From a virus, in IMG/VR virus record IMGVR_UViG_3300033148_010409, positions 1 to 45,714 of that record: a DNA stretch of 45,714 nt. The stretch is one strand, 5' to 3'. Of this stretch, positions 3,496-45,714 are shown piece by piece. Below the pieces are notes generated by a model that worked only from the letters and a program-made list of their open reading frames with translations, was not told where the DNA came from and did no database searches. The position numbers and the translations under genes are program-made. Positions within the stretch are counted from its first letter, which is position 1, and every line of letters starts with the position of its first letter.

Positions 3496-4801
3496 CGGCG
3501 CCTGGGTGCCGTACATGCATGTGAAATACGCCTCGTGGGTGATCTCAAAGGCGATATGGCTGGCGAAGAAAACCGGGATCGGCGGGAGGATAATCGTGAC
3601 CATGCCTCCAAGGCACGGGAAGAGTGAACTGGTCTCTCACTGGACGCCTGCCTGGTATCTTCACAACTGGCCGGAAGAGAAGGTCATCCTCACGACATAC
3701 GAGGCCGACTACTCGCTCTCCTGGGGCCGGAAGGTCAGGAACACGCTCACTTACAACGACGATATTCAGACCTATCTCGCCAAGGACTCGAAGGCCGCCG
3801 GCGCGTGGGAGACCGACAGGGGAGGAGGAATGGTCACTGCGGGCGTCGGCGGACCGATCACGGGTAGGGGAGGTCACTTAGTCATCATAGACGACCCGCA
3901 CAAGAACTGGGCAGAGGCGCAGTCCAAGAAAATCCGGGAGAACATCATCGACTGGTTCAACTCGACCCTTTACACACGCTGTGAGCCAGGGGCCACGATA
4001 GTCCTCCTCCAGACACGGTGGCACGAGCGGGATCTGGCCGGGTATCTCCTCAATGAGCACAAGGATGACTGGACCGAGGTGCGTCTCCCAGCCCTGGCAG
4101 AGGAGAGCGATCCGCTAGGAAGGGCAGAGGGAGAGGCCCTGTGTCCTGAGAGATACGACAGGGAAGCCCTGCTAAAGATCAAGGAAGCGGTGGGATCCCA
4201 GGTGTGGGCCGGGTTATATCAGCAGCGCCCGGCACCTATGGAGGGGAACATCTGGAAGCTGTCCTGGTGGAAGTACTACCGGGAAAGGCCCGCATTTCAG
4301 TACTTGATCCAATCCTGGGATACGGGTTTCAAGAAGGGCGAGGAGAACTCGTATACTGTGGGCCAGACCTGGGGGATCGCAAAAAATGGATATTACCTCG
4401 TGGACCAGGTTAGGGATAGGCTGGAGTACCCGGACTTAAAACGCATGATCCAGGTCAAATACAACCGGTTTAAGCCCCGCATCATCCTGGTGGAGGACAA
4501 GGCGTCAGGGATCTCGGTCGTCCAGGACCTCAAGAGGGAGACCAGGATACCGATAACGCCCATCAAGGTCTCCTCGGAGCAGGATAAGGTCGTCCGGGGC
4601 CAGCTCGCCTCACCGGCAGCCGAGGCGGGGCTGATCTATTTACCCGAGAAAGCGCCATGGCTCGATGACTACCTCGATGAGATGACCGCCTTCCCGAACT
4701 CGGAGTTCACTGACCAGGCGGACTGCACGAGCCAGGCGATTGAATATATGCATCAGAAGAGGGCCAGGGTCATTTCCGGAGCCCGCATAATAAGCGCGTG
4801 A
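3395..4801 (+). CDS. terL: Terminase large subunit (ATPase and nuclease)
   Basis: A 468-residue packaging motor. The ATPase domain shows Walker A MPPRHGKSE at 70-78 (Lys76) and Walker B LVIIDD around 162-167, with the coupling motif TRWHERDLAGY after it. The C-terminal RNase-H-like nuclease has WDTGF (Asp309), LVEDKASG (Asp368) and a final acidic helix near WLDDYLDE. This layout matches the psiM2 ORF9-type large terminases. The start at 3395 is chosen because GGAGGTG precedes it; an earlier in-frame ATG at 3332 has no such site. Length is normal for the family and no key residue is missing. Confidence 0.95.
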   Translation: MKSKGLAYRLEQIKRLKAIIHGLTPWTFAKRHSSGAWVPYMHVKYASWVISKAIWLAKKTGIGGRIIVTMPPRHGKSELVSHWTPAWYLHNWPEEKVILTTYEADYSLSWGRKVRNTLTYNDDIQTYLAKDSKAAGAWETDRGGGMVTAGVGGPITGRGGHLVIIDDPHKNWAEAQSKKIRENIIDWFNSTLYTRCEPGATIVLLQTRWHERDLAGYLLNEHKDDWTEVRLPALAEESDPLGRAEGEALCPERYDREALLKIKEAVGSQVWAGLYQQRPAPMEGNIWKLSWWKYYRERPAFQYLIQSWDTGFKKGEENSYTVGQTWGIAKNGYYLVDQVRDRLEYPDLKRMIQVKYNRFKPRIILVEDKASGISVVQDLKRETRIPITPIKVSSEQDKVVRGQLASPAAEAGLIYLPEKAPWLDDYLDEMTAFPNSEFTDQADCTSQAIEYMHQKRARVISGARIISA

Positions 4802-4814
4802 GGAGGACAATTGG

Positions 4815-5138
4815 ATGAACTGCAAGAACTGCGGCGGTGATACCAGGGTGCTGTGGACAAAAAACATGGGTCCTTTGGTCCGGAGGGTGAGACAATGCCA
4901 GTCGTGCCTCTACGTTTTCAACACGTATGAGGAAGAGGATACCAGGAAAGAGTTTACAACAGTGAACGGGAAGCCGCCGAAGACCCGGACCCAGGAGGGC
5001 AGGACCGAAACCTCTTCGTCTTCCACGACGACGACAACAGTGCCGGTAGCTGAACTGAGAAAGGAGAAGAAAGATGGCCCAGCTCACTATAAGAAAGGCC
5101 GGTTCCTTGCCGGAGCAAAAAGAAAGGCAGCCGCTTAA
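4815..5138 (+). CDS. NrdR-like zinc-ribbon protein with Thr/Ser linker
   Basis: A 107-residue protein. Residues 1-40 carry CKNCGG(D)TRVLWT, a short arginine-rich strand RRVRQ, then CQSC and FNTYE. This closely follows the N-terminal zinc ribbon of the ribonucleotide-reductase repressor NrdR. The ATP-cone domain that follows in NrdR is absent; it is replaced by a Thr/Ser tract at about residues 66-77 and a basic C-terminus ending KRKAAA. A GAGGAC site precedes the ATG. It overlaps the next gene by 65 bases. It may bind DNA or fold into the capsid; the function is unknown. Confidence 0.6.
   Translation: MNCKNCGGDTRVLWTKNMGPLVRRVRQCQSCLYVFNTYEEEDTRKEFTTVNGKPPKTRTQEGRTETSSSSTTTTTVPVAELRKEKKDGPAHYKKGRFLAGAKRKAAA
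5009..5043 (+). repeat. Thr/Ser-codon tract 1 (zinc-ribbon gene)
   Basis: Short run of ACN and TCN codons encoding SSSSTTTTT in the linker of the zinc-ribbon protein. It uses the same codon words as the larger tracts in the virion genes downstream. Confidence 0.7.
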
Positions 5139-9127: not shown

Positions 9128-9457
9128 ATGTGGGTCTTCACTCGTGATGGATTCTACTCGGTCGTCCATGACCGCTACTGCCAGCCAGACGAGCTAATGG
9201 TGAAGTCGCGAGACAAGAGAGATTTGATACGCCTAAGCAAAAAGATCCCTCTCGGGACGGTCCTCGAAACCAAGAAAGCGGATTACCGGTACCGCGCCGT
9301 GATCAAGCGGTCGTCCTGGGCGGCTTACGTCTCTCATGAAGCACTTGAGATAGATTATGACAATTTCAAGAGCACAGTTCACGGCATGGACGAGGACGAG
9401 ACCAGGGAGGTCGCATATATGAACGTATGGGTGGCGCTGAGGAATGCGTATATTTAA
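9128..9457 (+). CDS. Conserved hypothetical protein (MWVFTRDGF family)
   Basis: A 109-residue protein opening MWVFTRDGFYSVVHDRYCQPDELMVKSRDKRDL and containing IDYDNFKSTV and AYMNVWVAL. I recognise this pattern as a family widespread in bacteria and phages, with no established function known to me. AAAGAAGGAATAAAT precedes the start. It converges with the inverted portal block: its stop overlaps the end of the gp10-like gene on the other strand by four bases. Confidence 0.6.
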   Translation: MWVFTRDGFYSVVHDRYCQPDELMVKSRDKRDLIRLSKKIPLGTVLETKKADYRYRAVIKRSSWAAYVSHEALEIDYDNFKSTVHGMDEDETREVAYMNVWVALRNAYI

Positions 9458-9936
9458 AAAGCTATATCCATGTGGATTTTTTTTGGCAAATCTTTAACGA
9501 GCTCTTTCCCGTATTTCCTAGAGAGATCCTCTAAAAGCCATCCATAACCGATTTTCTGGAGCTCCTCCACTGCCTCCCTCAAGAATGGCTTTCCTTTCCT
9601 GGCCTTCTGCCTTACCTTTTTCCGAAATACCGCCTGTCCGCCTATCTTAAACTTCAGGGCCGCTTTTTTCGGATTCTTGTGGCGCCGATACCCGTAAGGC
9701 GGGTTCTTCCTGACGTTCGGGACGATGGTAATCGCCGGCCTGCCATCGTGGACCGCCCTGGCGTATGGGAGGTTTGAGCCGACAGTTGCCACGCCTTTGC
9801 CAACCAGGGTTGTTTGGATGGATTTCCGGAGATCCCCTGAGCGGAAAGGTATCCTGTCCTGGTCGGTGGCCAGGTCCTCGATCCTGTACCCGATCTTGAG
9901 TACAACCTCGTCAACATCCAGCTTTTTGACGCTCAC
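9454..9936 (-). CDS. HK97 gp10-like head-tail/tail-completion protein
   Basis: A 160-residue protein. The segment SGDLRKSIQTTLVGKGVATVGSNLPYARAVHDGRP is the signature of the HK97 gp10-like family, which acts in head-tail joining or tail completion. The C-terminus is basic (KKVRQKARKGKPFLREAVEE). The start is GTG at 9934-9936, overlapping the stop of the preceding gene, with GGGAGGG eight bases upstream. In most related phages this gene lies after the connectors behind the capsid gene, on the same strand. Here it travels with the portal on the opposite strand, and no second copy is seen at the usual place. Confidence 0.75.
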   Translation of the reverse strand: MSVKKLDVDEVVLKIGYRIEDLATDQDRIPFRSGDLRKSIQTTLVGKGVATVGSNLPYARAVHDGRPAITIVPNVRKNPPYGYRRHKNPKKAALKFKIGGQAVFRKKVRQKARKGKPFLREAVEELQKIGYGWLLEDLSRKYGKELVKDLPKKIHMDIAF

Positions 9937-10163
9937 AGCTCTACCCTCCCAAGATCGACGCCCTTCTTTTCCCGGATCAGCTCGATGAGCTTGTACTTGA
10001 TGGATGTGAGCTCAAGGTATGTGAAGGATGAGAGGTCCACTCCCGAGATGGTGTCCTCATTCCAGCCCAGGGCGTCTTCCACCTCCTTCCAGGTGATGCC
10101 ATGTTTCACCCGGGTGAACCGCAGCCATTTGATGAGCGGGGCCTTTTCTCTTATCACGGGCAT
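9933..10163 (-). CDS. Small protein between portal and gp10-like gene
   Basis: A 76-residue protein (MPVIREKAPLIKWLRF...). The ATG at 10163 is preferred because AAGGAGCTG sits correctly before it; a GTG at 10169 overlaps the portal stop and is an alternative. It is helical and includes WKEVEDALGWNEDTISGVDL, resembling the small unannotated proteins found in PBSX-like head modules. It is coupled to both neighbours by overlaps. Function unknown, probably structural. Confidence 0.6.
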   Translation of the reverse strand: MPVIREKAPLIKWLRFTRVKHGITWKEVEDALGWNEDTISGVDLSSFTYLELTSIKYKLIELIREKKGVDLGRVEL

Positions 10164-10165
10164 TG

Positions 10166-11446
10166 TCACAGCTCCTTATAAATCTTCTCCAGGGCATCCA
10201 CCAGTTTCTCTTCCGGCGGGGATCCGGTTTCCTGCTCCTCCTCTCGTGGTCCATAACCGAGGTCTTCCCTGGCCTCGTTGGCGTCCAGGATGCCGGCGCC
10301 GACAAGCGCGGGGTAATATTCAGAATCCTTTTCCTGGATCTTGGTGTCCAGCTCCTGGAACTTGAAGTCCGCGTCAATCCCCATGTCCTTGAGGATGGGC
10401 TGGAGCTTCGTCTCAAAAAGAGTCTGTCGGGGGTTGATGGTGACTTCCTGAAAGACTTTGAGCTGGCCATGGATCTCGCCTCCTCCCCCGAGCTGGCCCG
10501 ACACAACGATCCCTACGAGCCGGGGCGGGACCCCGTGGGCCGAGACGATATTGTCCCGGCACCTGGCCCGGAGCTTGTCAAAAGAGCCATCCCTGTCTTT
10601 CACGTCCAGGGCGAGCTTCTCGAAACGGACAGAGACTTCCTGATCGTTGATGGGGAGGTAAAGGGTCCTGTGGGCATTCTCCAGGCCCTTGAAGTTCGAT
10701 TGAAAGAACTCTACGACCTTCTTCTCGGTCTCTTCATCAAACTGTCCTCCCTCGACTACGATGGCCAGGTCCGGAACGCCTGAGTTCACGAAGAACTTCT
10801 GATTGTAAAGCACAGCATAATAGTCCACCTCGATATCGGGCACTGCGCCCCTCCAGTCCGGGAGGCCGTAATACCGTGACTTGTCGGTGTAGTTGCAGAA
10901 GTGGAGGATCTCGCCGTGCTCCGGGTCGCCGGGCTTTTCTCCGGTTTTGTATGCGTAGAAATCGACTGATTCAGCAGACCCCTGGTACACGAACGGGAAC
11001 TTTTCTCCCCGCTTCCTTCGCTTCATGAGGACAGCAGGCGCGTAGTATAACTCCTCGACCTGCCCCGCCCGATTCCGCACGATCTCAAGGTATCCATTCC
11101 CCGTGGTCTCGAAATCGAGGGACACCCTGGCTATGACCTCCTGGAACGACTGCCCCATCTCGTTCACCACGGCCAGCCGGTCCCTGGCAGCATCCTCTTT
11201 GGGCACATTAAGGATCTCCAGCCCGAGGTTGACTGTACAATCCGACTTCACGCGGAGGCACCGGGCGTGATAGGAGTTGAAATCGGTCATCCTGGAGTAA
11301 TAGGCGATGAGGTCGCCTTTCTGCTCGCTCATGGGGCGTTCGACAATGTCGCCGGTCTCTGGCTCGGCCTGCTTTGACTCCTTCTCGAATCTGGCCACGT
11401 AAATCACCTTGGCGCCTCCAAAGGCCTTCTTTGCTGTCCCTGCCAT
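10166..11446 (-). CDS. Portal protein (PBSX/HK97 type)
   Basis: A 426-residue portal. Recognisable portal features are DFETTGNGYLEIVRNRAGQVEELYYAP, ILHFCNYTDKSRYYGLPDW, FFVNSGVPDLAIVV, and the C-terminal FETKLQPILKDMG with an acidic tail. Portals form the dodecameric DNA gate at one capsid vertex. ATG 11446 follows an excellent AGGAGGGCTGAG site. It lies on the minus strand, whereas terminase, scaffold, capsid and tail genes are on the plus strand. This is unusual, because portal normally follows terL directly. Its promoter must lie in the short gap near the palindrome at 11509-11528. Confidence 0.9.
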   Translation of the reverse strand: MAGTAKKAFGGAKVIYVARFEKESKQAEPETGDIVERPMSEQKGDLIAYYSRMTDFNSYHARCLRVKSDCTVNLGLEILNVPKEDAARDRLAVVNEMGQSFQEVIARVSLDFETTGNGYLEIVRNRAGQVEELYYAPAVLMKRRKRGEKFPFVYQGSAESVDFYAYKTGEKPGDPEHGEILHFCNYTDKSRYYGLPDWRGAVPDIEVDYYAVLYNQKFFVNSGVPDLAIVVEGGQFDEETEKKVVEFFQSNFKGLENAHRTLYLPINDQEVSVRFEKLALDVKDRDGSFDKLRARCRDNIVSAHGVPPRLVGIVVSGQLGGGGEIHGQLKVFQEVTINPRQTLFETKLQPILKDMGIDADFKFQELDTKIQEKDSEYYPALVGAGILDANEAREDLGYGPREEEQETGSPPEEKLVDALEKIYKEL

Positions 11447-14163: not shown

Positions 14164-14646
14164 ATGACCTTAGATTTCGGAAGGACGGACACCGTCCAGA
14201 CCCAGGACAATCTCATTGCAGGCCCCATGCCGAGGGCGGAGGTGGGGATCGTCCTCCAATCGGGACAAAATCTGCTCCGAGGCGCCCCGCTCGGCAGGGT
14301 CACAACGACTGGGAAATACAAGGAGTGGGACCCCAACGCCAGCGATGGATCCCAGAATTTCAGGGCCATCCTGGCAGAGGACTGCGACGCCTCGGGAGGA
14401 GACGAGAACTGTGTCGCCTACTTCTCAGGACAGTTCAACTATGACGGGATTCAGTGGGACGATGACAAGCACCAGAAAGACGACCGGCTCGATGCGATCC
14501 TGGAGGGCCAGGACAGGGGGATCTATATCCTCGGTCACGACATAGGCGTCACTGAGGCTGCATGGACATCCACATCAACCACAACCACGAGCTCGACATC
14601 CACCACGACTTCGTCCAGCTCGTCAACAACCACGACGACAGCCTAA
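14164..14646 (+). CDS. Head decoration protein (lambda gpD-like) with Thr/Ser tail
   Basis: A 160-residue protein. Residues 1-130 resemble the lambda D family that trimerises on the capsid surface (AEVGIVLQSGQNLLRGAPLGRV, FRAILAEDCDASG, VAYFSGQFN). The last 26 residues consist only of Thr and Ser apart from a final Ala. Such a tail is not part of lambda D and would protrude from the capsid in many copies. GAGGAGGTGAAACGT gives a very strong ribosome site. It precedes the major capsid gene, as in lambda. The tail is a candidate substrate for the glycosyltransferase island downstream (inference). Confidence 0.8.
   Translation: MTLDFGRTDTVQTQDNLIAGPMPRAEVGIVLQSGQNLLRGAPLGRVTTTGKYKEWDPNASDGSQNFRAILAEDCDASGGDENCVAYFSGQFNYDGIQWDDDKHQKDDRLDAILEGQDRGIYILGHDIGVTEAAWTSTSTTTTSSTSTTTSSSSSTTTTTA
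14566..14643 (+). repeat. Thr/Ser-codon tract 2 (decoration protein tail)
   Basis: Degenerate repeat of ACN, TCN and AGC codons such as ACCACGAGCTCGACATCC, encoding the surface tail of the decoration protein. No exact unit length; it reads as codon-level low complexity. Confidence 0.9.
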
Positions 14647-16913: not shown

Positions 16914-17489
16914 ATGCCTTTAAGTCCTCACAACACTGAATTACATGAGCTCGGACGGGGCAAGCTCTATATCGCGGAGTGGTCTGGCGGTTCGCCGGGA
17001 AGTTACGAGGAAGTCGGGAACTGCCCGCGATTCGAATTCGAGGTGACAGAAGAGAGCCTGCCGCACAAGGAAAGCCGCGGAGGAATCAGGACCCAGGACA
17101 AGATCGCAACGATTGAGGCTGGGTATACCCTTTCCTTTGACCTGGACGAGATCGCGGCGGCGAACCTGGCAAAATATGTCCGGGGAGAAGTAGACGCCTC
17201 TGACCCTTACTTGATCCATGGAGTAACCACAGACGGCCTCAATAAGGAGTATGCGGTTAAGTTCGTCCAGGACAACCAGGAAGGTCCGAATAAAACCCTT
17301 GAGTTTTGGAAGTGCAAGCTGAAACCGGGAGGGGCCTACTCGGTCATAGGCGATGACTGGTCCGTGCTTCCCTTCAGCGGAGAAGGGCTGAGCGATAAGA
17401 CGAATCACCCCAGCTCGCCCTACTTTGACGTGAAATACCACAGCACGACGACCACGTCGTCCAGCACAACCACGACAACAACAGCTTAA
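16914..17489 (+). CDS. Major tail (tube) protein with Thr/Ser tail
   Basis: A 191-residue protein. Its beta-rich body (LYIAEWSGGSPGSYEEVGNCPRFEFEVTE, IATIEAGYTLSFDLDEIAAANLAKYVRGE) is typical of siphovirus tail-tube subunits and it lies directly before the G/GT chaperone genes. The final 15 residues are Thr/Ser with a terminal Ala, like the decoration protein tail. That would decorate the whole tail shaft in hundreds of copies. AAGGAGGTGTTTTAAC is a strong ribosome site. Confidence 0.8.
   Translation: MPLSPHNTELHELGRGKLYIAEWSGGSPGSYEEVGNCPRFEFEVTEESLPHKESRGGIRTQDKIATIEAGYTLSFDLDEIAAANLAKYVRGEVDASDPYLIHGVTTDGLNKEYAVKFVQDNQEGPNKTLEFWKCKLKPGGAYSVIGDDWSVLPFSGEGLSDKTNHPSSPYFDVKYHSTTTTSSSTTTTTTA
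17442..17486 (+). repeat. Thr/Ser-codon tract 3 (tail tube protein)
   Basis: ACN/TCN/AGC codon run encoding the C-terminal Thr/Ser tail of the tail tube protein, using the same words as tracts 2 and 4-7. Confidence 0.9.
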
Positions 17490-20478: not shown

Positions 20479-21045
20479 GTGTCCATCATCAATACATACC
20501 TCCTGAAGAAACCCGATTGGTCCTCCCCGGTGAAGGTGCTCAAGAGCTGGAGGACAGGCGTCCAGAAATCCATCCAGTCAGCAGAGAAAAGAGGTCGGAT
20601 ATACTCCAGGGCAAGGATCGGCATCAGATTCATTCTCAGGGCCGCTGACTACGCCGAGGCGGCCTATATCCACAGGAAGGTATACAAGTACCAGGGCGGC
20701 ATCGTGGGAATCCCCCTGTGGCCGTACCTGGCCAGGATAGAGGCCCAGGCATCGGCGGGGCAGAAGGACGTCCAGGTAGAGTCAACCGTCAACACCTTCT
20801 TCACCCCAGGCCGCACCGTGGTGCTCATGGACCCGGCCAACCCGGAAAATTACGAATCAGGTGTCATAGCGTCTGTCATAGCAACTGTCATAACACTTGA
20901 AAATAACCTCGATAATACCTGGGACGCAGGAGATGAGATCGTCCCGGTGATCCCATGCAGGATCGGGGACTCTAACTCGTTCACGTGGGCAACTGACAGG
21001 AATCTTTCCATCAGCATAGAGGCAAGAGAGGCGATAGCTGACTAA
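20479..21045 (+). CDS. Minor tail protein (distal tail region)
   Basis: A 188-residue protein from a GTG start directly after the tape measure stop. Beta-rich C-terminal part (VVLMDPANPENYESGVIASVIATVITLENNL, IPCRIGDSNSFTWATDRNLSISIEA). Its place after the tape measure suggests a distal tail or hub component. Its stop and the next start overlap (TAATG). Confidence 0.6.
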   Translation: MSIINTYLLKKPDWSSPVKVLKSWRTGVQKSIQSAEKRGRIYSRARIGIRFILRAADYAEAAYIHRKVYKYQGGIVGIPLWPYLARIEAQASAGQKDVQVESTVNTFFTPGRTVVLMDPANPENYESGVIASVIATVITLENNLDNTWDAGDEIVPVIPCRIGDSNSFTWATDRNLSISIEAREAIAD

Positions 21046-23084
21046 TGGCATTTGAGGACTTCACAATATTCACTGAAGTCGATGAAGACGGCGACATAAC
21101 CGTATCCCAGAACCTGATCCAGGTCGATACGATGCGCCGGGATGTCCGGAGCTACGTCTATAAGGATTATGGCCCTGATTACTTCGGTGATTTCACCCAT
21201 GACATTGACATTGACTGGACGGCAGTTTCCGCAACCGCTGCGACGGCGGTGGTTTGGGCGCTGACGAACAACTCCTACACGATTACCGAAATGGACTCTA
21301 ATTCCGATGGAATTAGGGTTTTTGTGCACTTTGACGGCACGGATTACGTTATCTGGCTCAGCGATAGAGTCGATGGTGTTTATGATTCTTACACTTTTGG
21401 TTCTTCTCTTCCCGGCAAGAGGTATCTCACAATTGAGCGGTCTGGGACCAGCATTACCTGCAAGATATACACGGATTCTGCACGCACGAACCTCGAAGCC
21501 ACCCTTTCCATCACTGGGACATCTAACGCCTTTAGGAACCTTTTCGGGCTGATGTCCGCAGAGAGCGAGTCTACTCCTGCCTCCACGATAACAATTGATG
21601 TAAGCAACCTGGAGCTCGATGCAGGCGGAACCACTACGACCACCACACAGAGCACGACCACGAGCTCAACGACGACATCATCGAGCACGACAACGACGGG
21701 GACGCAATCAACCTCAAGCACCACCACAACGACCGTGGGTCCCTTCCCCTGTGACAGTTACCCGGACCACTGGGCCTACGATGCGCCCCAAGAGTGGACC
21801 CACAACGAGAGCAACTGGGCCGGGCGGACCTTGAGGTATGTCATCCCCGCCTCCAGCTTGAGGGCGGGCGGGGCCGAGGTATCCATCTACTTCCCCTGGC
21901 AGGGGCTCGACTACCAGATCGGAAAATGCTACATCGGCCACCAGGCCGCCTCCGGCCACGAGTACGATTTTGACGGGAACCAGGTCCAAGTGACCTTTGG
22001 CGGAGGCAATGCCGGCGTCACGGTCACCTCTCCCGGAGAGTGGTCAGATCAGGTCGCCTTTGACCTGGACCCGTCCAAAAGCCTGGTCATCGCTGTTTAC
22101 TTTGTTGACAACGGCATCCCCAGGGGGCCGCTTGAACCTAATGTCACAGGGTACTGGAAGGATGGGGATGATGCGGCGACACAGGATGCCATGGGGTATT
22201 CGCTCCTGCCGAACTACACAGCGCAGAGGGCCATAGACATCATTTGCGTGTCCTCGGGCCTTACGACCACGAGCACCACAACGACTTCATCGACCACATC
22301 GAGCACTACCACCTCCACCGGGCCTGGCACGACCGCCACGACCACGAGCTCCTCAACCACTACATCCACACAGTCGACCACTTGCACGACCACAACGTCA
22401 GGGCCTTACTGGTCATGGTACCAGGACAGGCCGGTCTTCCTGGTGCACCCCAATTGGATTTCGCCCATTGACTCAGGAATAGACGATCCGACAGACATCA
22501 CCGTCTTTTATGGGAAGGAGTATGCCTACGGGCACTACAAGGAGGGGGAAACTACGCTCCAGGCCGAGTACCTGCGGGCAGACAGGGAGGAGGTCATGTC
22601 CGTGTTCGACTTCTTCGATCTGGTCCGGGGCAGGCACATTAGCTTCTGGTTCCCCACCTGGCGGTCTGACATAGTCGTCAATACGGCCTTCGGGGCAGCG
22701 GACGTTACCCTGAGCGTCGAGGACTTCAAGTGGGAGGAGTATTTCGAGCACAAAGCCACAGCACAGTATCTATTCTTTGCGTTCCCGGACGGGACAACGA
22801 CTATAAGGAAGCTCATCTCAGCCACGGCCACTTCAATCACGCTGGACCAGGCTATCGGCAAGAGCGTGTCGGCGGAGGAACTCGGTCAGCTCCTGGTCTC
22901 ATTCCTCCTCTATGGCCGGTTCGACCAGGACGAGGTGGAGGTAGAATTCATGAGCTCCGAAGCCGCAAAGGTCAATCTGAGCTTCCGCTCGCTGCCCTAC
23001 GAGACGCCAGGGGTGATAACCAGCACATCCACCACGACCACGAGCTCCTCGACATCAAGCTCCACCACGAGCACGACATTGTAG
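21045..23084 (+). CDS. Modular tail protein with three Thr/Ser linkers
   Basis: A 679-residue protein built as domain-linker-domain-linker-domain-tail. Residues 1-195 form a beta-sandwich, LamG-like region (DGIRVFVHFDGTDYVIWLSDRVDG, RYLTIERSGTSITCKIY). Residues about 240-405 form a second beta domain. Residues about 455-655 resemble a distal tail protein core (YGKEYAYGHYKEGETTLQAEYLRADREEV, GRHISFWFPTWRSD). Thr/Ser-only tracts lie near 195-232, 406-454 and 658-679. Mobile adhesion modules on a mucin-like stalk are a natural reading. It ends in a tract like the other virion proteins. Confidence 0.65.
   Translation: MAFEDFTIFTEVDEDGDITVSQNLIQVDTMRRDVRSYVYKDYGPDYFGDFTHDIDIDWTAVSATAATAVVWALTNNSYTITEMDSNSDGIRVFVHFDGTDYVIWLSDRVDGVYDSYTFGSSLPGKRYLTIERSGTSITCKIYTDSARTNLEATLSITGTSNAFRNLFGLMSAESESTPASTITIDVSNLELDAGGTTTTTTQSTTTSSTTTSSSTTTTGTQSTSSTTTTTVGPFPCDSYPDHWAYDAPQEWTHNESNWAGRTLRYVIPASSLRAGGAEVSIYFPWQGLDYQIGKCYIGHQAASGHEYDFDGNQVQVTFGGGNAGVTVTSPGEWSDQVAFDLDPSKSLVIAVYFVDNGIPRGPLEPNVTGYWKDGDDAATQDAMGYSLLPNYTAQRAIDIICVSSGLTTTSTTTTSSTTSSTTTSTGPGTTATTTSSSTTTSTQSTTCTTTTSGPYWSWYQDRPVFLVHPNWISPIDSGIDDPTDITVFYGKEYAYGHYKEGETTLQAEYLRADREEVMSVFDFFDLVRGRHISFWFPTWRSDIVVNTAFGAADVTLSVEDFKWEEYFEHKATAQYLFFAFPDGTTTIRKLISATATSITLDQAIGKSVSAEELGQLLVSFLLYGRFDQDEVEVEFMSSEAAKVNLSFRSLPYETPGVITSTSTTTTSSSTSSSTTSTTL
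21629..21738 (+). repeat. Thr/Ser-codon tract 4 (first linker)
   Basis: About 110 bases of ACN/AGC/TCN codons between the first and second domains of the modular tail protein. Confidence 0.9.
22261..22406 (+). repeat. Thr/Ser-codon tract 5 (second linker)
   Basis: About 145 bases of Thr/Ser codons with a few Gly, Pro and Ala codons and one Cys codon, between the second and third domains of the modular tail protein. Confidence 0.9.
23019..23081 (+). repeat. Thr/Ser-codon tract 6 (C-terminal tail)
   Basis: Thr/Ser codon run that closes the modular tail protein; the product ends in TSTTL. Confidence 0.9.
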
Positions 23085-28378: not shown

Positions 28379-29002
28379 ATGACAGACACGCAAAAGTATG
28401 ACCTGATCGAGATCGACTACAGCCACGAGGGCTGGAACGGGGACCTCACCACAAACATGCAGAAGCTAGACGACCACCTCCATACCAGGGTATTGGTCAC
28501 CCTGGGCGAGGCGGTCAACCGGGGCGACGCCCTTTACCAGGACACGGACGGGAAGTGGTACAAGGCTCTCGCAGACGGAAACAAGCAGCCGGCCAGGGGG
28601 CTTGCTGTCGAGGGCGGATCGGCGGGACAGCAAATCAGGATGCAGAGGATAGGGCCGTTCCAGAAGACAGGCTGGAGGTTCAAGGTCCCGTACAAATTGT
28701 GGCTTGACGACACGGTGGCGGGTGTGTTAAGTCATCATAAGCCCGCATCAGACGCCCAGTGCATGGGCCACGCCATAGCGTCCGACACGATCTTCCTTGA
28801 CATACAGGACCAGGAGGAGGTCGGCCCCGCTTTTTTCGGCACCACGACGACACAATCAACGACATCGTCATCGACGACCAGCTCCGGCACAAGCACGTCA
28901 TCTTCAACATCATCAACCACGACTGAGAGCACGACAACGTCGTCCAGCATGACTACGACTACGCAGTCGTCCACCAGCACCACGACGACCACGACGGCGT
29001 GA
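28379..29002 (+). CDS. Tail fibre/tip protein with a long Thr/Ser tail
   Basis: A 207-residue protein. Residues 1-150 include NMQKLDDHLHTRVLVTLGEAVNRGDALYQD and ADGNKQPARGLAVEGGSAGQQIRMQRIG, a small beta domain of the kind seen in fibre and DUF2190-like surface proteins. The final 53 residues are Thr/Ser with a few Gln, Glu, Gly and Met residues and a terminal Ala. It is the last tail gene and immediately precedes the glycosyltransferase island. A GGAGTGATACC site precedes the ATG. Confidence 0.65.
   Translation: MTDTQKYDLIEIDYSHEGWNGDLTTNMQKLDDHLHTRVLVTLGEAVNRGDALYQDTDGKWYKALADGNKQPARGLAVEGGSAGQQIRMQRIGPFQKTGWRFKVPYKLWLDDTVAGVLSHHKPASDAQCMGHAIASDTIFLDIQDQEEVGPAFFGTTTTQSTTSSSTTSSGTSTSSSTSSTTTESTTTSSSMTTTTQSSTSTTTTTTA
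28841..28999 (+). repeat. Thr/Ser-codon tract 7 (fibre tail)
   Basis: The longest uninterrupted tract, about 160 bases of ACN/TCN/AGC codons, ending 22 bases before the first glycosyltransferase gene. Confidence 0.9.
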
Positions 29003-29020
29003 CGTGCAGAAGGAGCAGGC

Positions 29021-30286
29021 ATGAAGATAGCGATCATGACAAACTTCCAAGAGTTTCTCCCCGGCTACAGCCTTACCGGGATCGTCAAGGACCAGGTCAT
29101 CATGCTCAGGCGGCACGGGCACGAGGCCCATCTCTATGTGTCCGAGAAGTACAATGGCGAGGAGTTCTCCCCTGGGATCCCCGTCCACAAGAAGGTCCCC
29201 TTTGCCCACCTCAGAGACTATGCCTCCATAAAAGAACTCTCGGAAGACCATAGGAAGATAGCAGAGGCGACTGCAAAGATGCTCGTGGAGGAGCTTTTCG
29301 AGTTCGACATGGTGTGGACCCATGACTGGATATTCACGGGCTGGAACGTCCCCTACGGGCTGGGCTGTCAGCTCGCCTGGCCGAACATGGCGAAGCCGGC
29401 ATGGCTCCACTGGATTCATTCAGTGCCGTCGAACAGCCGCGACTACTGGCAGATTAGGGCATATGGCCCCAGGGCCAAAATAGTGTTCCCCAACAGGACA
29501 GACGCGCTGCTCGTGGCAGAGCAGTTCAGGGGCGAGATAGATGACGTGAGGCCCATCCACCATATCAAGGATTTGCGGACCTTCTATGACTTCCACGCGG
29601 ACACATGGCGCTTGATCGACCTCGTGCCGCAGATCATGAGCGCAGATGTGGTTCAGATCCTTCCGGCATCGGCGGACCGGCTCAGCGCGAAGAGGGTCCG
29701 GGAAGTGATCACCATATTCGGGCATATCAATCGGCGCGTCAACGAGGTGTGCTTGGTGATCGCCAACCAATGGGCCACGGAGAGGCAGCACAGGGAGGAT
29801 ATCGGGAAATACTACGAGCATGCAAAGGAATGCGGTCTTGAACCGGGCCGTGACGTGGTGTTCACGAGTGACGTGATGCCGGAATACAGCGTGGGGATCC
29901 CCAAGCGGATGATCAGGGAGCTTTTCCTGTGCTCCAACCTTTTCATCTTCCCGACCAGGGAAGAGTCCTTCGGCCTGGTAGTGCCGGAGGCGGCGCTCCA
30001 CGGGGTCCAGCTCGTGCTCAACCGATCCTTGATCCAGCAATACGAGGTGGCGGGGCACAATGCGCTTTTTTTCGACTTCGGTTCATACCGGCATAAGCAC
30101 CACAACAAGATGGGAGACAGGTACTACGCGGAGATAGCGGTCATCACCCTCGGCATGATGGCCAAATCGGATGTGATCCGCTCCAAGACCTTCGCCAGGA
30201 AGTGCTACAACATGGATTACCTCTACCGGGCGGAGTACGAGCCCGTGATGGGCGAGTCGTTGATCTGGGGGAGGAAAGCGGCATGA
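29021..30286 (+). CDS. Glycosyltransferase, GT4-like
   Basis: A 421-residue GT-B type protein. The N-terminal half opens MKIAIMTNFQEFLPGYSLTGIVKDQVIMLRRHGHEAHLY, the acceptor domain pattern. The C-terminal half has FIFPTREESFGLVVPEAALHG, the E-x7-E nucleotide-sugar motif of GT4 retaining enzymes. Cytoplasmic, with no membrane segment. AGAAGGAGCAGGC precedes the ATG. It is the first of seven tightly coupled sugar and methyl-transfer genes. Donor and acceptor cannot be told from sequence. Confidence 0.85.
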   Translation: MKIAIMTNFQEFLPGYSLTGIVKDQVIMLRRHGHEAHLYVSEKYNGEEFSPGIPVHKKVPFAHLRDYASIKELSEDHRKIAEATAKMLVEELFEFDMVWTHDWIFTGWNVPYGLGCQLAWPNMAKPAWLHWIHSVPSNSRDYWQIRAYGPRAKIVFPNRTDALLVAEQFRGEIDDVRPIHHIKDLRTFYDFHADTWRLIDLVPQIMSADVVQILPASADRLSAKRVREVITIFGHINRRVNEVCLVIANQWATERQHREDIGKYYEHAKECGLEPGRDVVFTSDVMPEYSVGIPKRMIRELFLCSNLFIFPTREESFGLVVPEAALHGVQLVLNRSLIQQYEVAGHNALFFDFGSYRHKHHNKMGDRYYAEIAVITLGMMAKSDVIRSKTFARKCYNMDYLYRAEYEPVMGESLIWGRKAA

Positions 30287-31401
30287 GGCTGGTGTTCTTC
30301 TACTATTCGTACAAGCACGGGTACGGCCAGGGCCAGGCATGGGACCCGTGTGCCGAATCGAATAACTACTATGCCGCGCGCTTTACCCAGGAGGGCTACT
30401 ATAGGCTGATCCAATACATGGCCGACCTGCGGATAATCGACGAGGCCCTGGTGGTCATAGAGTCGAGGGAAAGCCCAGGGTACCGGGTTTACAGCGAGAA
30501 AGTGCATTGCCTTGTCATGCCCGATATAACGGCTCTGACCGGGCTTATCAAGGCCGGCAATGATGTCATATGGGTCAGGGGAGGCTTCAAGCACTGGCAT
30601 GACTGGCTCTTTGACCTGCATAAGCAGGGGTTCTGGCTCATGATCTATGCTGCCAATACCGGCAGGCAGAAGTGGAAGTTCTGGGACGTGGTGTTCAACG
30701 ACCTGGACGGGAAAGACCATGTCGATGGCATCGGGAGGGTGCACCTGGACTTCAGGAAACCCATCAACGATGAAATCTTTTACCTGAACCCCGTGCGCGA
30801 CAGGTGGGACGTCATGATCGGCGCGAGCCGGGTCCACGACAAGAAAGGCCAGTGGCGGGCTATAGACGCCTTGGCAACATACAAGGAGCTTTATAAGGAG
30901 CCTTTGCGGGCAGTCGTGCCGGGGCCGTTCTCGCGGGGCGTGCAAACCAACAGGATCAGAGAGAAGGTCCTTTTTCACAACCTGCCAGTGGATATCCTTG
31001 GCGAGGTGCCCAGGGAAGATCTGGCTGTTGTAATGAACTCGACAAAGATTTTTGTTGGCCTGGGCTCTCATGGCCAGGGGGACCGGGGACCCATGGAAGC
31101 CATGGCGTGCGGATGCCCGCTTCTGATCGGGTATCCCTGGTACCACGCGCCATGGGTGACGGCAGACGAGAGATATGCCGCGGTCTCTGAGAACCCGGAC
31201 AACCCAATCGTTGTGGCTACCGAGATAAACAAGATGTTGAGCGAATACACGCCGGCGCTGAGGCAGGAGGTCAGCCGCTACAGGGAGGAGTGCGCCGGCA
31301 TAGAAAGGCATGCGCTGCCTCTGATGGCCAGGCTCTTCTCCTGGTTCAAAGAGAACCCGCGGGCAAACAGGAAAGCGCTGGCGAAGGAGCTGGGGTTGTG
31401 A
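30283..31401 (+). CDS. Glycosyltransferase, GT-B fold
   Basis: A 372-residue protein whose ATG overlaps the previous stop (ATGA). The C-terminal region FVGLGSHGQGDRGPMEAMACGCPLLIGYPWYHAPWV is a typical GT-B donor-site loop with a Glu-containing motif (PMEAMACG). The N-terminal region MRLVFFYYSYKHGYGQGQ may bind the acceptor. No membrane segment. Strict coupling to its neighbours implies coordinated, near-equal synthesis. Confidence 0.7.
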   Translation: MRLVFFYYSYKHGYGQGQAWDPCAESNNYYAARFTQEGYYRLIQYMADLRIIDEALVVIESRESPGYRVYSEKVHCLVMPDITALTGLIKAGNDVIWVRGGFKHWHDWLFDLHKQGFWLMIYAANTGRQKWKFWDVVFNDLDGKDHVDGIGRVHLDFRKPINDEIFYLNPVRDRWDVMIGASRVHDKKGQWRAIDALATYKELYKEPLRAVVPGPFSRGVQTNRIREKVLFHNLPVDILGEVPREDLAVVMNSTKIFVGLGSHGQGDRGPMEAMACGCPLLIGYPWYHAPWVTADERYAAVSENPDNPIVVATEINKMLSEYTPALRQEVSRYREECAGIERHALPLMARLFSWFKENPRANRKALAKELGL

Positions 31402-32099
31402 ACTATGGGAAATTCTCAGTCGTGATCCCGATGGTAAACCGGAAGATGGCAGAAAGGCTTCTTGGTTCAATTGAATCTATTGAAGACCATTCATACGGCC
31501 TGGAAAGGATGATTATCATCGACAATACCGGCCAAAACAAACCCCTGGACATAGGATTATCTTTCTCCGATGTCCTGGTTTTGAAGCCCTCAAAACCTCT
31601 CCCTGTCAACCCCTCATGGGAAATAGGGATCAGGCTGTCTGGCGACGTCGATTACGTGAGCATCCTCAACGATGACGTTATCCTTTGGCCTCGTTTCTTC
31701 GAGCGGGTTGCATCTGTTTTTAGGCAGTATCCTGACGCTGGCGCAGTTTGCCCCCATACTTTGACGCCGCATAATGCTGACAGGCCTGCTCCTCGCATCC
31801 ATCGCATGAAGAGAAAAGAGGGCTGGGCATTCACCATGCGGAAGGCCCTCCTCGACAATATCCCCCCGATCCCGGAGGGATGCCGGTATTTCTTCGGGGA
31901 CAACTGGTTCTGGTGGTTCACATACCGCAAGTTCAACATGTTCTGGTATAAGGACACGGGGAACGTAATATGGCACGAGATCGGGGCATCTATCAAAGAA
32001 ATCGATGGATACCGCAGAATCAAGGAGGAAGAGAAGGAGGCCTGCTCCAGGGCATTGAGGAAATACTTCCCCGACCCCAAAAGGGAGGGTACGACATGA
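31398..32099 (+). CDS. Glycosyltransferase, GT2-like (GT-A fold)
   Basis: A 233-residue protein from a GTG that overlaps the preceding TGA. N-terminal KFSVVIPMVNRKMAERLLGSIES and YVSILNDDVILWPRFFERV show the GT-A nucleotide-binding strand and an NDD metal motif. Later FFGDNWFWWFTYRKFNMFWY resembles an acceptor-side segment. It is shorter than average for GT2 but has both key regions. Same operon. Confidence 0.75.
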   Translation: MNYGKFSVVIPMVNRKMAERLLGSIESIEDHSYGLERMIIIDNTGQNKPLDIGLSFSDVLVLKPSKPLPVNPSWEIGIRLSGDVDYVSILNDDVILWPRFFERVASVFRQYPDAGAVCPHTLTPHNADRPAPRIHRMKRKEGWAFTMRKALLDNIPPIPEGCRYFFGDNWFWWFTYRKFNMFWYKDTGNVIWHEIGASIKEIDGYRRIKEEEKEACSRALRKYFPDPKREGTT

Positions 32100-32662
32100 A
32101 GCCCAGGAAGTTCAGGCAAATGGAGTTTCGGGACCTCTTGGTAGAGCTGATACGGCTGCTCCAACCAAGCGTGTATTGTGAGGTCGGGGTCAAGCGCGGG
32201 TACACCTTCAATACAATAGCTCCTTTGGTCGATCTAGCCATTGCCGTGGACATAGCACCACTCAATTGCATCGAAGGGCCTTTGCCGGGCCGGAAGATAA
32301 AGAAATACCAGATGAGATCGGACGAGTTCGCAAAAAGATACAGGGGTCCTTCCATAGATTTCCTGTTCATCGATGGGGATCATTCCCGCGACCAGGTCAT
32401 CAAGGACGTGTTTGAAATAGGCAGGAAGCACGTCAGGGACCAGACTGGGCTTATCTTCCTCCATGACACCTATCCCGCCGTTCCAGAGCTTGCGGTTCCG
32501 GGGTATTGTCATAACGCCTGGGAAGCAGCCGAGTATTTCCACAAGCACGGCAGTGAGTACAAGTTCGAGGTCGTGACACTGCCCGGTCCTTGGGCCGGGC
32601 TTTCCATCATGAGGAAGGTCGAGGCAGGACACCTTCACTGGAGGAGCAATGAAGCCGCTTGA
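32096..32662 (+). CDS. SAM-dependent methyltransferase (class I, Methyltransf_24-like)
   Basis: A 188-residue protein with ATG overlapping the preceding stop. YCEVGVKRGYTFNTIAPLV is the SAM-binding glycine loop, AIAVDIAP the acidic end of strand two, and IDFLFIDGDHSRDQVIKD the IDGDH motif typical of small sugar O-methyltransferases. The context suggests methylation of a glycan made by the adjacent glycosyltransferases (inference). Confidence 0.8.
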   Translation: MKPRKFRQMEFRDLLVELIRLLQPSVYCEVGVKRGYTFNTIAPLVDLAIAVDIAPLNCIEGPLPGRKIKKYQMRSDEFAKRYRGPSIDFLFIDGDHSRDQVIKDVFEIGRKHVRDQTGLIFLHDTYPAVPELAVPGYCHNAWEAAEYFHKHGSEYKFEVVTLPGPWAGLSIMRKVEAGHLHWRSNEAA

Positions 32663-33254
32663 GGACATATACGGCGAGAGGTTCTTCAAGTTAAGACACC
32701 GTCTGAATTGGCGCGCCCCGATAGTTTGCAGCGCCATTCAAGAGGTTTTTGACCCCCGCTCGGTCATCGATGCGGGGTGCGCGACCGGGGACTTGGTCGC
32801 AGAATTCATGACCATGGCGGTTGACGCCTACGGTATCGAGGGCTCCAGGGCCGTCATGCCATACCTTGAGTGCTCAGCAGGGAGGGTATTCTTCTATGAC
32901 CTCCGGAAGCCCCTCCCAGGCCCTTCCAGGCGGTACGACCTTGCAATATGCTTTGAGGTGGCGGAGCACATCGAGCCGGAACATACAGAACAGTTCGTCT
33001 TGAACTTAGTTAGCCTCTCAGACCGCATCCTTATGTCAGCGGCGCCTCCGGGCCAGGGGGGACACCACCATGTCAACTGCCAGCCGCCGGGATACTGGGT
33101 GCAGAAGTTCTGGCAGTACGGCTTTTTTAGGAACCTCAGCCCGGAAAACAAATTTAAAGCGCGGCTTTCGCCATGGGCCTGGAAGAAGGGCATCAAGGCA
33201 TACTACGAGAATAGCCTCCACTTTGAACGAAACAAGGAGTTCGCCCATGATTGA
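32649..33254 (+). CDS. SAM-dependent methyltransferase (class I)
   Basis: A 201-residue protein. SVIDAGCATGDLVAEF is motif I and YDLAICFEVAEHIEPEHTEQFVLNL is the post-motif II signature of the Methyltransf_11/23 groups. A Gly/His loop (PPGQGGHHHVNCQPPGYW) follows. It overlaps the preceding gene by 14 bases and the next by eight. A role in capping or modifying the same glycan is inferred. Confidence 0.8.
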   Translation: MKPLEDIYGERFFKLRHRLNWRAPIVCSAIQEVFDPRSVIDAGCATGDLVAEFMTMAVDAYGIEGSRAVMPYLECSAGRVFFYDLRKPLPGPSRRYDLAICFEVAEHIEPEHTEQFVLNLVSLSDRILMSAAPPGQGGHHHVNCQPPGYWVQKFWQYGFFRNLSPENKFKARLSPWAWKKGIKAYYENSLHFERNKEFAHD

Positions 33255-33984
33255 GATCCTGATGACGGCGACCAAGAGGCCGGAGGTCATCGAGAGGACC
33301 TTGAGATCGTTCAAGGCCAATCTGTTCCGAAACATTCCGGCGAAGGTGATAATAAACATAGACCCGGTGGGACCTGCTAAGACAAAAGATACCCTCGACG
33401 TGGTGGGCGAGTACTTCCGGGTCAAGTCGGTCAACCTGCCGGAGGTGCCGCACTTCGGCAAGGCCTTCAAGTGGGTGTGGTCGCAGGCTGAGGCGGAGCT
33501 CTGCTTCTGGCTAGAGGACGACTGGGAGCTGATACGGCCCCTTAGTCTCCTCGATATGATGGAGGTTATGTTTGAAACCCCGGACCTGGCGTCTCTTAGG
33601 CTTAACTGGAAGCCCACGAAACAGTGGGCCATGAAGAACTGGAAATTTTACTTTTTGTGGGTCCAGATAACCAAGTCGGGCCTTTTCGAGTGCCCCAGGA
33701 AGGACCGCCAGGAGGTCGGATTCTGCGGGCACCCCTCCCTTCTTCGGGGCACGTTTGTGAGAAAGTGCGCTCGGTGGATAGACCCGGAGCTCAACCCCGA
33801 GAAACAGTTCCATGCCGGGAACGAGAAGCTGATCAAAGAGATCCTCAAGTGGAAGTACGGCGTCTATGGAGGGCAGAACCAACCGCCTTCGGTGAGAGAC
33901 ATCGGCAGGGAATGGATGGTCAGGCAGGGCTATAGGAAGAAGGGTAGCAAGGCCTGGTTCGTGCAGTGGGAGGAGGTGGCTTGA
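33247..33984 (+). CDS. Glycosyltransferase, GT2-like
   Basis: A 245-residue protein. MIEILMTATKRPEVIERTLRSFKANLF is the GT-A N-terminal strand-helix, and CFWLEDDWELIRPLSLLD supplies an EDDW metal motif. GFCGHPSLLRGTFVRKC may frame the acceptor site. AACAAGGAGTTCGCCC precedes the ATG. Its stop overlaps the next start. Confidence 0.75.
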   Translation: MIEILMTATKRPEVIERTLRSFKANLFRNIPAKVIINIDPVGPAKTKDTLDVVGEYFRVKSVNLPEVPHFGKAFKWVWSQAEAELCFWLEDDWELIRPLSLLDMMEVMFETPDLASLRLNWKPTKQWAMKNWKFYFLWVQITKSGLFECPRKDRQEVGFCGHPSLLRGTFVRKCARWIDPELNPEKQFHAGNEKLIKEILKWKYGVYGGQNQPPSVRDIGREWMVRQGYRKKGSKAWFVQWEEVA

Positions 33985-35021
33985 TGGTCAAACTGTCCGT
34001 GATCATACCTTTCTGCAACGAGTATCCCCAAGTAATATTCAGCATCCGGGCCATCGCCGAGGAGCTAATAGGCCGGGTCGACTTCGAAGTCATCGCGGTG
34101 GACAACTATTGCACCGAGCTTCACAACCAGAAGAAGACCGTCAAGGTCAGGCGGGACGGAGAGGAGCTAGAGGACGTTGAGTCAAAGCAATACCCGGACC
34201 GGGGAGGGGAGGTTATCGAGGGGTCTCAGAGGGCGTGTTCTCCCTGGCTGAAATATGTGAGATACAATAAGAAACTCTCCCACTGGAACGCCAAGAACGT
34301 GGGGCTCCGAGTTGCCACGGGTGAGTTCTTCTACTTCGTGGACGCCCACGTCGTCCCCAGCCGGGATTCAATCTCCCGGATGTTCTTCTACTACGAAAAG
34401 CGCTGGCAGGACCTTAACGGCACCATTGCCCTTCCTTTGACCTACAAGATCCTGGAAAGCCGGCGGTTGATCTACAAGCTATTCATCGAAGACGACGGGA
34501 CGGTCCATTACAAGTTCACGCCTCTCCGGAAGACAGATGGGCCTTTCCGTGTCCCATGCATGTCCGCCTGCGGGGTCATGATGCACAGGTCCTTCATAAT
34601 GGAGGGCCTGGGCGGGGGATGGCCTGAGCACCTGGGGATCTACGGCGGCGGGGAGAACTTTCTCAACTTCGTCCTGGCGACCCAGGGTAAGACTGTCAAC
34701 GTCTACCCCTTCGGCACTCTGTACCACCACGGGGATCCGCGGGAGTACTATTGGAACTGGGTGGATTACACCAAGAACCGGGCCGTGGCCAACTACATGA
34801 TCGGCGGGGAGGAGTATATGGACCAGTTCCTTGACAGAAGAAAGGGCGACCGAGGAGTGTTAAACAGAATCAGGACTGAGATCTTGGAGTCATGCAGAGA
34901 TCATAGGGAAAAGATCCGAAAAACTCAGAAGATGTCCATCCAAACGTGGGTGGAGAAGTGTATCCTAGAAGGATGGTTGGAGGATGAGCAGATGATAAGG
35001 AAATTTAGGATGATATATTAG
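33984..35021 (+). CDS. Glycosyltransferase, GT2-like (large)
   Basis: A 345-residue protein. VKLSVIIPFCNEYPQVIFSIRAI and FEVIAVDNY give the GT2 nucleotide-sugar site, and GEFFYFVDAHVVPS an aspartate/His metal motif (DAH) as in several GalNAc-transferase-like GT-A enzymes. GGGWPEHLGIYGGGENFL matches the catalytic GGG(E)N-type segment of such enzymes. GGAGGAGGTGG precedes the ATG. It is the last gene of the island and converges on the minus-strand membrane gene four bases later. Confidence 0.75.
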   Translation: MVKLSVIIPFCNEYPQVIFSIRAIAEELIGRVDFEVIAVDNYCTELHNQKKTVKVRRDGEELEDVESKQYPDRGGEVIEGSQRACSPWLKYVRYNKKLSHWNAKNVGLRVATGEFFYFVDAHVVPSRDSISRMFFYYEKRWQDLNGTIALPLTYKILESRRLIYKLFIEDDGTVHYKFTPLRKTDGPFRVPCMSACGVMMHRSFIMEGLGGGWPEHLGIYGGGENFLNFVLATQGKTVNVYPFGTLYHHGDPREYYWNWVDYTKNRAVANYMIGGEEYMDQFLDRRKGDRGVLNRIRTEILESCRDHREKIRKTQKMSIQTWVEKCILEGWLEDEQMIRKFRMIY

Positions 35022-44489: not shown

Positions 44490-44810
44490 ATGTCAACCAC
44501 TTTCATAAGCCCGAAAGAGATAGCCTCCAGACTTAACAGGTCCCTTAAATGGGTCTATAATCATGCAGCCGATTTGGGTGGCGCCCGGATAGGCGGGTCA
44601 TGGATCTTCACGGAGGAGGGCCTGAGAGATGCCATACAGGCAGGGCAGGAAATGGCGAGGAGTCGTCAAGATAGGCGGGGTCCGGGTGGAGCAGAAGCTC
44701 TTCAGGCTAAAGAGAGAGGCCGCAGCGTGGGAAAACGAAACCCGGCAGAGATACTTAGAGAGCGAGAAGAGGGCGCGAGGAGGCACGGACTTGACGACCT
44801 TCTGTATTAA
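44490..44810 (+). CDS. xis: Excisionase-like protein (HTH_17)
   Basis: A 106-residue protein. Residues 1-50 (FISPKEIASRLNRSLKWVYNHAADLGGARIGGSWIFTEEGLRDAI) are the winged-helix excisionase/HTH_17 domain that binds the attachment region and directs excision. The rest is Arg/Glu/Gly-rich and overlaps the integrase start by 182 bases in another frame. The conserved domain ends near where the overlap begins, so the tail may be unconstrained. Confidence 0.7.
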   Translation: MSTTFISPKEIASRLNRSLKWVYNHAADLGGARIGGSWIFTEEGLRDAIQAGQEMARSRQDRRGPGGAEALQAKERGRSVGKRNPAEILREREEGARRHGLDDLLY

Positions 44811-45714
44811 ATACCTGGACTATGCGCTCCAGTTCCGGCCAAAGACTTATGCGGAAAAGAGGTTCCTCACCCGGCGGCTAATCAAAGCGTGGGGCGGCGA
44901 CACCCTGGTGGAAGAGATCACCTCAGAGATGCTCCTTTCTTTCCTGGCAGAGAGGGCGAAACAGGTATCGAACAATGCCTTCAACAAGGACAGGAAGAAC
45001 CTCATGGCCATGTTCAACTGGGGCAGGGAAATACTGGGCCTTGAGTCCAACCCTGCTGCCAGGATCAAGAAAAGGCCTCATGACCGGTCCCCGCAATATG
45101 TACCTCCTACGGCGGACGTGCTGAAGGTCCTGGCCGTCGCCTCCAGGGACGAAAAAGCGTTCTTGGACTGTTTCCTCCTCACCGGCGCCAGGCGCTCGGA
45201 AATCCTCTGCTGGAACTGGATCGAGGACATCAACTTTGAACAAAGGCTGTATCGGCTCGGCACGAGGAAGACCAGGGACGGATCCATGGAGTATGAATGG
45301 TTTACCATGAGCGATGAGCTCTACGGGTCGCTATGGTGGCTGTGGGAGCACAGGAGGGACAGGACAAGCCCCTACCTGTTCCCCCAGTATTGCTGCCCTG
45401 ACGAGAAGGGGAACAACTGGATCGGGGAGCAGAGGGCCAATCGGTGGATAAAAGCCTTGTGCAAGAGGGCAGGGATTATATCCTTCGAGTTCCACGCGCT
45501 GAGGCGCTACGTGGCCTCTGTGCTTGCGGACGAGCACAAGGTCAGCGCCAAGAGGATACAGCGGATTTTGAGGCACAAGAGCCTCTCGACCACGGAGAGG
45601 TACATCAGGCTCCTGAACGAGGACCTGAAAGAGACGCTGGAACTGCTTTCTGAGAGGTCAGTACCCCAAAGCGGTACCCCAAGGAAGGACGTGAAGGATG
45701 GAGAATCTGGATAA
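44629..45714 (+). CDS. int: Tyrosine recombinase integrase
   Basis: A 361-residue protein. Residues 1-45 are the arm-binding N-terminal domain (MPYRQGRKWRGVVKIGGVRVEQKLF), 50-140 the SAM-like core-binding domain, and 160-335 the catalytic domain. Catalytic residues: Arg188 (TGARRSE), probable Lys214, His289 and Arg292 (FHALRR), His316 (LRHKS) and Tyr325 (TERYIRL). GGAGGG precedes the ATG. The last 18 residues (SVPQSGTPRKDVKDGESG) are encoded partly by the arm-site repeat. It points towards the expected attR/tRNA just outside the window. Confidence 0.95.
   Translation: MPYRQGRKWRGVVKIGGVRVEQKLFRLKREAAAWENETRQRYLESEKRARGGTDLTTFCIKYLDYALQFRPKTYAEKRFLTRRLIKAWGGDTLVEEITSEMLLSFLAERAKQVSNNAFNKDRKNLMAMFNWGREILGLESNPAARIKKRPHDRSPQYVPPTADVLKVLAVASRDEKAFLDCFLLTGARRSEILCWNWIEDINFEQRLYRLGTRKTRDGSMEYEWFTMSDELYGSLWWLWEHRRDRTSPYLFPQYCCPDEKGNNWIGEQRANRWIKALCKRAGIISFEFHALRRYVASVLADEHKVSAKRIQRILRHKSLSTTERYIRLLNEDLKETLELLSERSVPQSGTPRKDVKDGESG
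45658..45681 (+). other. Putative integrase arm-type site 3, inside int
   Basis: GTACCCCAAAGCGGTACCCC with flanking TCA matches the copies beside attL at 820-837 (inverted) and 873-892 (direct). It codes VPQSGTP near the integrase C-terminus. Confidence 0.5.

Follow-up and report, generated by a model that had tools for sequence, protein, structure and literature searches.

A transferase island linked to Thr/Ser-tailed virion proteins in a temperate phage: a candidate pathway for O-glycosylation of the virion

Introduction

What do glycosyltransferases and methyltransferases act upon when they are encoded directly behind the tail genes of a phage? The question is raised by IMG/VR virus record IMGVR_UViG_3300033148_010409, which belongs to a temperate tailed phage and was analysed over its whole length of 45,714 nucleotides (hereafter the window). 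It carries an island of seven transferase genes, and several of its virion proteins bear tracts made almost only of threonine and serine (Thr/Ser tails). The original prediction was that the island builds a methyl-capped glycan on these tails, modification of a host surface glycan being the main alternative. The analysis below leads us to consider it quite probable, on comparative sequence grounds, that the island encodes a late pathway of cytoplasmic O-glycosylation directed at the virion itself, started by its first enzyme, GT1, and completed by variable partners that would extend and cap the glycan.

Results

GT1 and Thr/Ser tails occur together

The first gene of the island (29021–30286, plus strand) encodes GT1, a GT-B/GT4-type glycosyltransferase proposed as the initiating enzyme; its Pfam matches are weak, and it matches phrog_2170 (1.8e-8). 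Co-occurrence of tails and cassette in related phages, a survey put forward with the original prediction, was examined in both directions, and each partner recovered the other. Starting from the enzyme, a Thr/Ser tract was found within 10 kilobases (kb) of GT1 at 55 of 79 loci, versus 1 of 65 capsid-matched control loci (Fisher p 2e-19). The 79 loci were newly fetched ones (L122–L200, genome hits included), and the 65 controls were picked by capsid similarity to the window. When whole records were searched with a stricter pattern of 12 consecutive Thr/Ser codons, 29 of 50 GT1 records were positive versus none of 46 controls, a control figure that leaves out one antisense acidic repeat match. 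A second control set, built from an unrelated phage glycosyltransferase, comprised two loci only and was not used. At the GT1 loci of G062, G074 and G092 no tract lay nearby but one was present elsewhere in the record, and G086 has short tails such as PPTTTTEPPPTTTTTV.

Starting from the tails, viral contigs were scanned, blind to the enzyme, for the DNA pattern [Thr/Ser]11-Thr4-Ala-stop. Of the 22 contigs returned, most encode between one and four Thr/Ser-tailed proteins. GT1 relatives with 53–54% identity are present on longer contigs of this set (G008, G014/G023 and G018), whose capsid proteins resemble that of the window only remotely. Additional island enzymes are encoded in G006 and G008.

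Tails and GT1 were then compared within a single family of capsid proteins of 440 amino acids (aa). At the 39 loci scanned, either a Thr/Ser tail closes the protein or the protein terminates exactly where the tail would start. GT1 was present in all eight long records with a tailed capsid protein (G008, G018, G064, G066, G067, G069, G091 and G420), whereas it was present in none of the four long records with a tail-less one (G419, G423, G424 and G429; exact test p 0.002). Over the 279 kb of these four records, there is no Thr/Ser tract (13 in 20 residues), and neither GT1 nor the other island glycosyltransferases have a relative there. Since the capsid protein of G419 is 60% identical to that of the tailed G008, loss or gain of the tail seems to have gone along with that of the enzyme, and on the capsid tree the tail label requires at least three changes. 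Cassettes without tails, and tails without the cassette, had been named in the original prediction as evidence that would speak against it; taken together, the comparisons come out strongly in favour of linkage.

In a second lineage, with capsid proteins of 340 aa (the window, G016, G062 and G082), the capsid protein is untailed, and the decoration protein is tailed where examined. The tail follows the outer surface of the virion and not a gene family: members of the 440-aa family carry it on the capsid protein, those of the 340-aa lineage on the decoration protein. In L006, whose capsid protein is 63% identical to that of the window, the decoration protein ends just before the point where the tail would begin. 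Thus, GT1 and Thr/Ser tails are tightly linked in gain and loss across divergent phages.

Several observations weigh against reading this linkage as that of an enzyme with its substrate. Four GT1 records are devoid of a Thr/Ser tract (G073, G089 and the fragments G071 and G088, two of the four being shorter than 23 kb), and in G073 (47.7 kb) the cassette adjoins DNA-metabolism genes. G006, a truncated contig of 11.6 kb, combines tails with other enzymes of the island but lacks GT1, and the tailed record L038, a 20 kb fragment, is also GT1-less. The tail-less long records of the 440-aa family represent about three lineages. Finally, the counts contain related, non-independent sequences, and many records are fragments.

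Two further arrangements were noted among GT1 phages. Very long mucin-like Thr/Ser domains, often interspersed with Ala, Leu, Phe or His and amounting in one phage (G066) to about 1,970 tract residues, the maximum, are found in the tail proteins of G008, G064, G066, G067, G077 and G080. At L166, L186, L190 and L195–L197, distant GT1 relatives (25–33% identity) are located downstream of tandem short proteins (about 96–150 aa), each of them Thr/Ser-tailed.

Four virion proteins of the window bear Thr/Ser tracts

The gene immediately upstream of the island (28379–29002, plus strand) encodes a tail-end protein of 207 aa. As described in the original prediction, it ends in a Thr/Ser tail (47 of its last 53 residues are Thr or Ser) and GT1 begins 18 bases downstream. 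The AlphaFold model of this protein has low confidence (predicted local distance difference test, pLDDT, 44.7), and its tail is predicted to be disordered. The label of fibre that it had been given is unproven: no fibre signature was found in the protein, and a homologue has a weak Phage_cement_2 match.

The tracts announced on a decoration protein, a tail tube protein and a modular tail protein are all present, on plus-strand genes. The lambda gpD-like head decoration protein (14164–14646; phrog_49) matches PF02924 HDPD (4.2e-19) over residues 24–120 only, and the Thr/Ser tail of about 28 residues (approximately residues 133–160) comes after the domain. In the major tail tube protein (16914–17489; phrog_807, 4e-31), the C-terminal tail consists of 14 Thr/Ser followed by Ala. 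The third protein, a tail protein (21045–23084; phrog_1082, 7.5e-26), has an internal tract at approximately residues 406–450. Isolate relatives of the tube protein are annotated with an immunoglobulin (Ig)-like domain (phrog_807), and in the window the Thr/Ser tail may stand in its place.

In the tracts, all four kinds of Thr codon and both Ser codon families are intermixed, so that the tracts are not a DNA repeat. Tail codons were compared between the window and the related phages G002 or G001. In the decoration tail 8 of 28 codons differ, and in the tube tail 11 of 16, with no amino-acid change in either; in the tail of the pre-island protein 12 of 38 codons differ, with one amino-acid change. 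Such synonymous change speaks against a neutral microsatellite. It is the protein sequence of the tails that is conserved, with selection on their amino acids, and an origin by chance or from a DNA repeat is ruled out by the mixed codons together with the synonymous change.

The island encodes five glycosyltransferases and two methyltransferases

The island consists of seven consecutive intact genes which, as had been noted, overlap, neighbours sharing 1–14 bases once starts were refined. Following GT1, and all on the plus strand, are genes for a GT-B glycosyltransferase (30283–31401; Glycos_transf_1 PF00534, 2.4e-9), with a homologue in 25 of the analysed tail/GT1 records; a GT2-family glycosyltransferase (31398–32099; PF00535, 2.2e-8); two S-adenosylmethionine (SAM)-dependent methyltransferases (32096–32662; Methyltransf_24 PF13578, 6.3e-8, and 32649–33254; Methyltransf_23 PF13489, 6.1e-7), the second with homologues in 21 records; a GT2-like glycosyltransferase weakly supported by Pfam (33247–33984; PF00535 at 0.022 only), with homologues in 21 records; and a GT2-family glycosyltransferase (33984–35021; PF00535, 7.4e-11), with homologues in 23 records. 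Hydropathy revealed no membrane segment in the seven proteins, and the island contains no flippase.

Glycosyl-, methyl-, acyl- and sulfotransferases are abundant among 116 genes located downstream of GT1 in other phages. The set of genes varies: methyltransferases, GT-A and GT-B enzymes and hexapeptide acyltransferases are found, with occasional sulfotransferases, radical SAM proteins and nucleoside diphosphate (NDP)-sugar epimerases. This is the pattern expected for a constant first step followed by variable elongation and capping. Another transferase island, with a GT-B/GT9-like fusion, radical SAM proteins and methyltransferases, is located behind the capsid gene of G419 (44724–55229, L352).

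GT1 belongs to a divergent family confined almost entirely to phages

The AlphaFold model of GT1 (pLDDT 94.7) has a GT-B fold. Its nearest structural neighbours are BshA/MshA (E-value about 1e-13, Z about 16–17, 13–20% identity). The whole-chain superposition is poor, with a root-mean-square deviation of about 17 Å, perhaps due to a different orientation of the domains. The glutamates of the EX7E motif, E315 and E323, are invariant across 49 sequences. Scores remain below the Pfam curated cut-offs (22.1 versus 27 for PF13692, 19.4 versus 26.4 for PF00534), and a search of the PDB sequences with a GT1 profile gave no significant match. By fold and motif, GT1 belongs to the GT4/GT-B retaining glycosyltransferases, and by its scores it is a divergent member. 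Its structural neighbours include TarM and SdgB, the glycosyltransferase of staphylococcal Ser-Asp repeats (Z about 15, about 12% identity); GtfA is not among the matches listed.

An alignment search of viral contigs with GT1 gave 125 relatives, of which the best 80 matches were retained. Among 84,980 prokaryote species genomes, only three contain a GT1 relative, and all three are metagenome-assembled bins. One of them is a metagenome-assembled genome (MAG) of Desulfobacteraceae, and among 291 genomes of its order only this MAG carries a GT1 prophage. There was no GT1 relative in 50,697 deposited phage records. Judging from these searches, the family appears nearly phage-exclusive.

Genome setting

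Besides the proteins described above, the window encodes a terminase, a portal, a protease, a major capsid protein of the E family, a tape measure, tail-tip proteins and a tyrosine integrase (44629–45714). The island follows immediately after the tail genes, joined to the late tail operon. Comparison with G002 suggests that the window genome is circularly permuted. Two genes of the otherwise plus-strand head operon, one for the portal (10166–11446, PF04860) and one gp10-like, are inverted onto the minus strand (window 9454–11446), an arrangement also found in G002. In L006, an apparent diversity-generating retroelement (2779–5445) was recognised by eye from a repeated WNNGTHCGSRSR-type region and a reverse-transcriptase-like gene.

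Discussion

The pathway we propose would run as follows. GT1, as a retaining GT4-type enzyme, would most likely start the glycan by moving a sugar from a nucleotide-sugar of the host onto Thr or Ser. These acceptor residues would lie in the disordered tails carried by the decoration protein, the tail tube, the 21045–23084 tail protein and the 28379–29002 tail-end protein. The glycan would then be extended by the remaining four glycosyltransferases and capped by the two methyltransferases, so that head and tail alike would bear a methylated coat. The role of such a coat is the least certain part: it may be a variable surface layer that alters recognition, adhesion or stability of the particle.

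The island could instead serve lysogenic conversion, its transferases altering a host surface glycan so as to block adsorption of related phages, with the tails unrelated. Prophage islands of glycosyltransferases and methyltransferases often change host polysaccharides, and the window phage, with its integrase, is temperate. However, a tyrosine integrase, the one class of integrase searched for, is absent from 25 of the 27 long GT1 records, and the island has neither a membrane protein nor a flippase, unlike gtrABC-type systems with their flippase and membrane-embedded transferase. Its junction with the late tail operon also speaks against conversion, which leaves the link to virion tails unexplained. 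We therefore regard conversion as improbable, and the preference of the original prediction for a virion glycan over a host one is supported.

Alternatively, tails and GT1 might simply travel in a shared mosaic tail module or lineage, without any enzyme-substrate relation, the tails being disordered spacers or adhesive brushes. The two are physically close in most phages, and Thr/Ser-rich linkers can serve as spacers. However, in several records the tails of capsid or decoration proteins are well over 10 kb from GT1, yet they are missing together with it, as in G419 compared with its tailed relatives (about 60% capsid identity), so that co-inheritance of neighbours is not by itself an explanation. 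In addition, several unrelated proteins of one phage bear tails, and the tail changes repeatedly on the capsid tree. Mere co-travel is thus also unlikely. Glycosylation of modified bases in phage DNA is hardly plausible: GT-B enzymes do serve DNA glycosylation, and one viral structural neighbour of GT1 (rank 42) is annotated as a DNA alpha-glycosyltransferase, but 24 of the 27 long GT1 records, the window among them, lack a match to a hydroxymethylase of the thymidylate synthase family, and the link to Thr/Ser tails would have no reason.

Virion glycosylation by the island, the reading that we retain, has parallels. GT4-type enzymes such as staphylococcal SdgB and streptococcal GtfA/GtfB O-glycosylate Ser/Thr-rich low-complexity adhesins, and several transferases are encoded beside the acceptor gene. 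The island shares with these systems the type of enzyme and, if the proposal is right, the kind of acceptor and a transferase cluster adjoining an acceptor gene, but their acceptors are secreted adhesins, whereas virion proteins are proposed here. BshA and MshA resemble GT1 in fold and EX7E motif, and differ from it by their low identity and by their known substrates, malate or inositol phosphate.

Among phages, mycobacteriophages such as Che8 have O-glycans on the C-termini of capsid and/or tail tube proteins, added by phage-encoded transferases, according to three papers citing Freeman 2023 (PMC12619734, PMC11256854, PMC11652166). Here too, several phage glycosyltransferases are encoded in a row. 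However, the Che8 capsid and tail proteins lack such tracts (the maxima are 7 and 5 Thr/Ser among 20 residues, respectively), whereas the window has long tracts on four proteins; the three Che8 transferases gp108–110 are encoded near the right genome end; and the methyltransferases of the island are a further difference. Hidden Markov model and phmmer searches at maximum sensitivity gave no significant match between gp108–110 and the island enzymes. Our literature searches on glycosyltransferases combined with Thr/Ser or mucin-like tails in phages returned nothing closer, and experimentally shown virion O-glycosylation turned up in mycobacteriophages only. The statement that no such phage had been described must accordingly be narrowed: the mycobacteriophage system is not detectably homologous, but virion O-glycosylation by phage-encoded transferases is already known there. 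The kind of system is known; what is new is the separate set of enzymes, the distinct and recognisable candidate acceptor and the large uncultured distribution.

A broader claim, which we think rather likely to hold, is that these phages possess a phage-exclusive and widespread mucin-type O-glycosylation system, of an origin independent of the mycobacteriophage one and to date without a counterpart among deposited phage genomes. It would comprise a dedicated initiating GT4 family, with at least 125 relatives on viral contigs, tails grafted onto outward-facing virion proteins, and interchangeable elongating, methylating, acylating and sulfating enzymes that diversify the coat.

Natural relatives with and without tails make the question of the substrate directly testable. 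If the proposal is true, two simple sequence marks, the Thr/Ser tail and GT1, would suffice to spot the module in any genome, and the enzymes may find use as O-glycosyltransferases acting on simple Thr/Ser peptides. Sugar-coating of the virion would then be a transferable module in divergent environmental phages, with an initiating enzyme family of its own.

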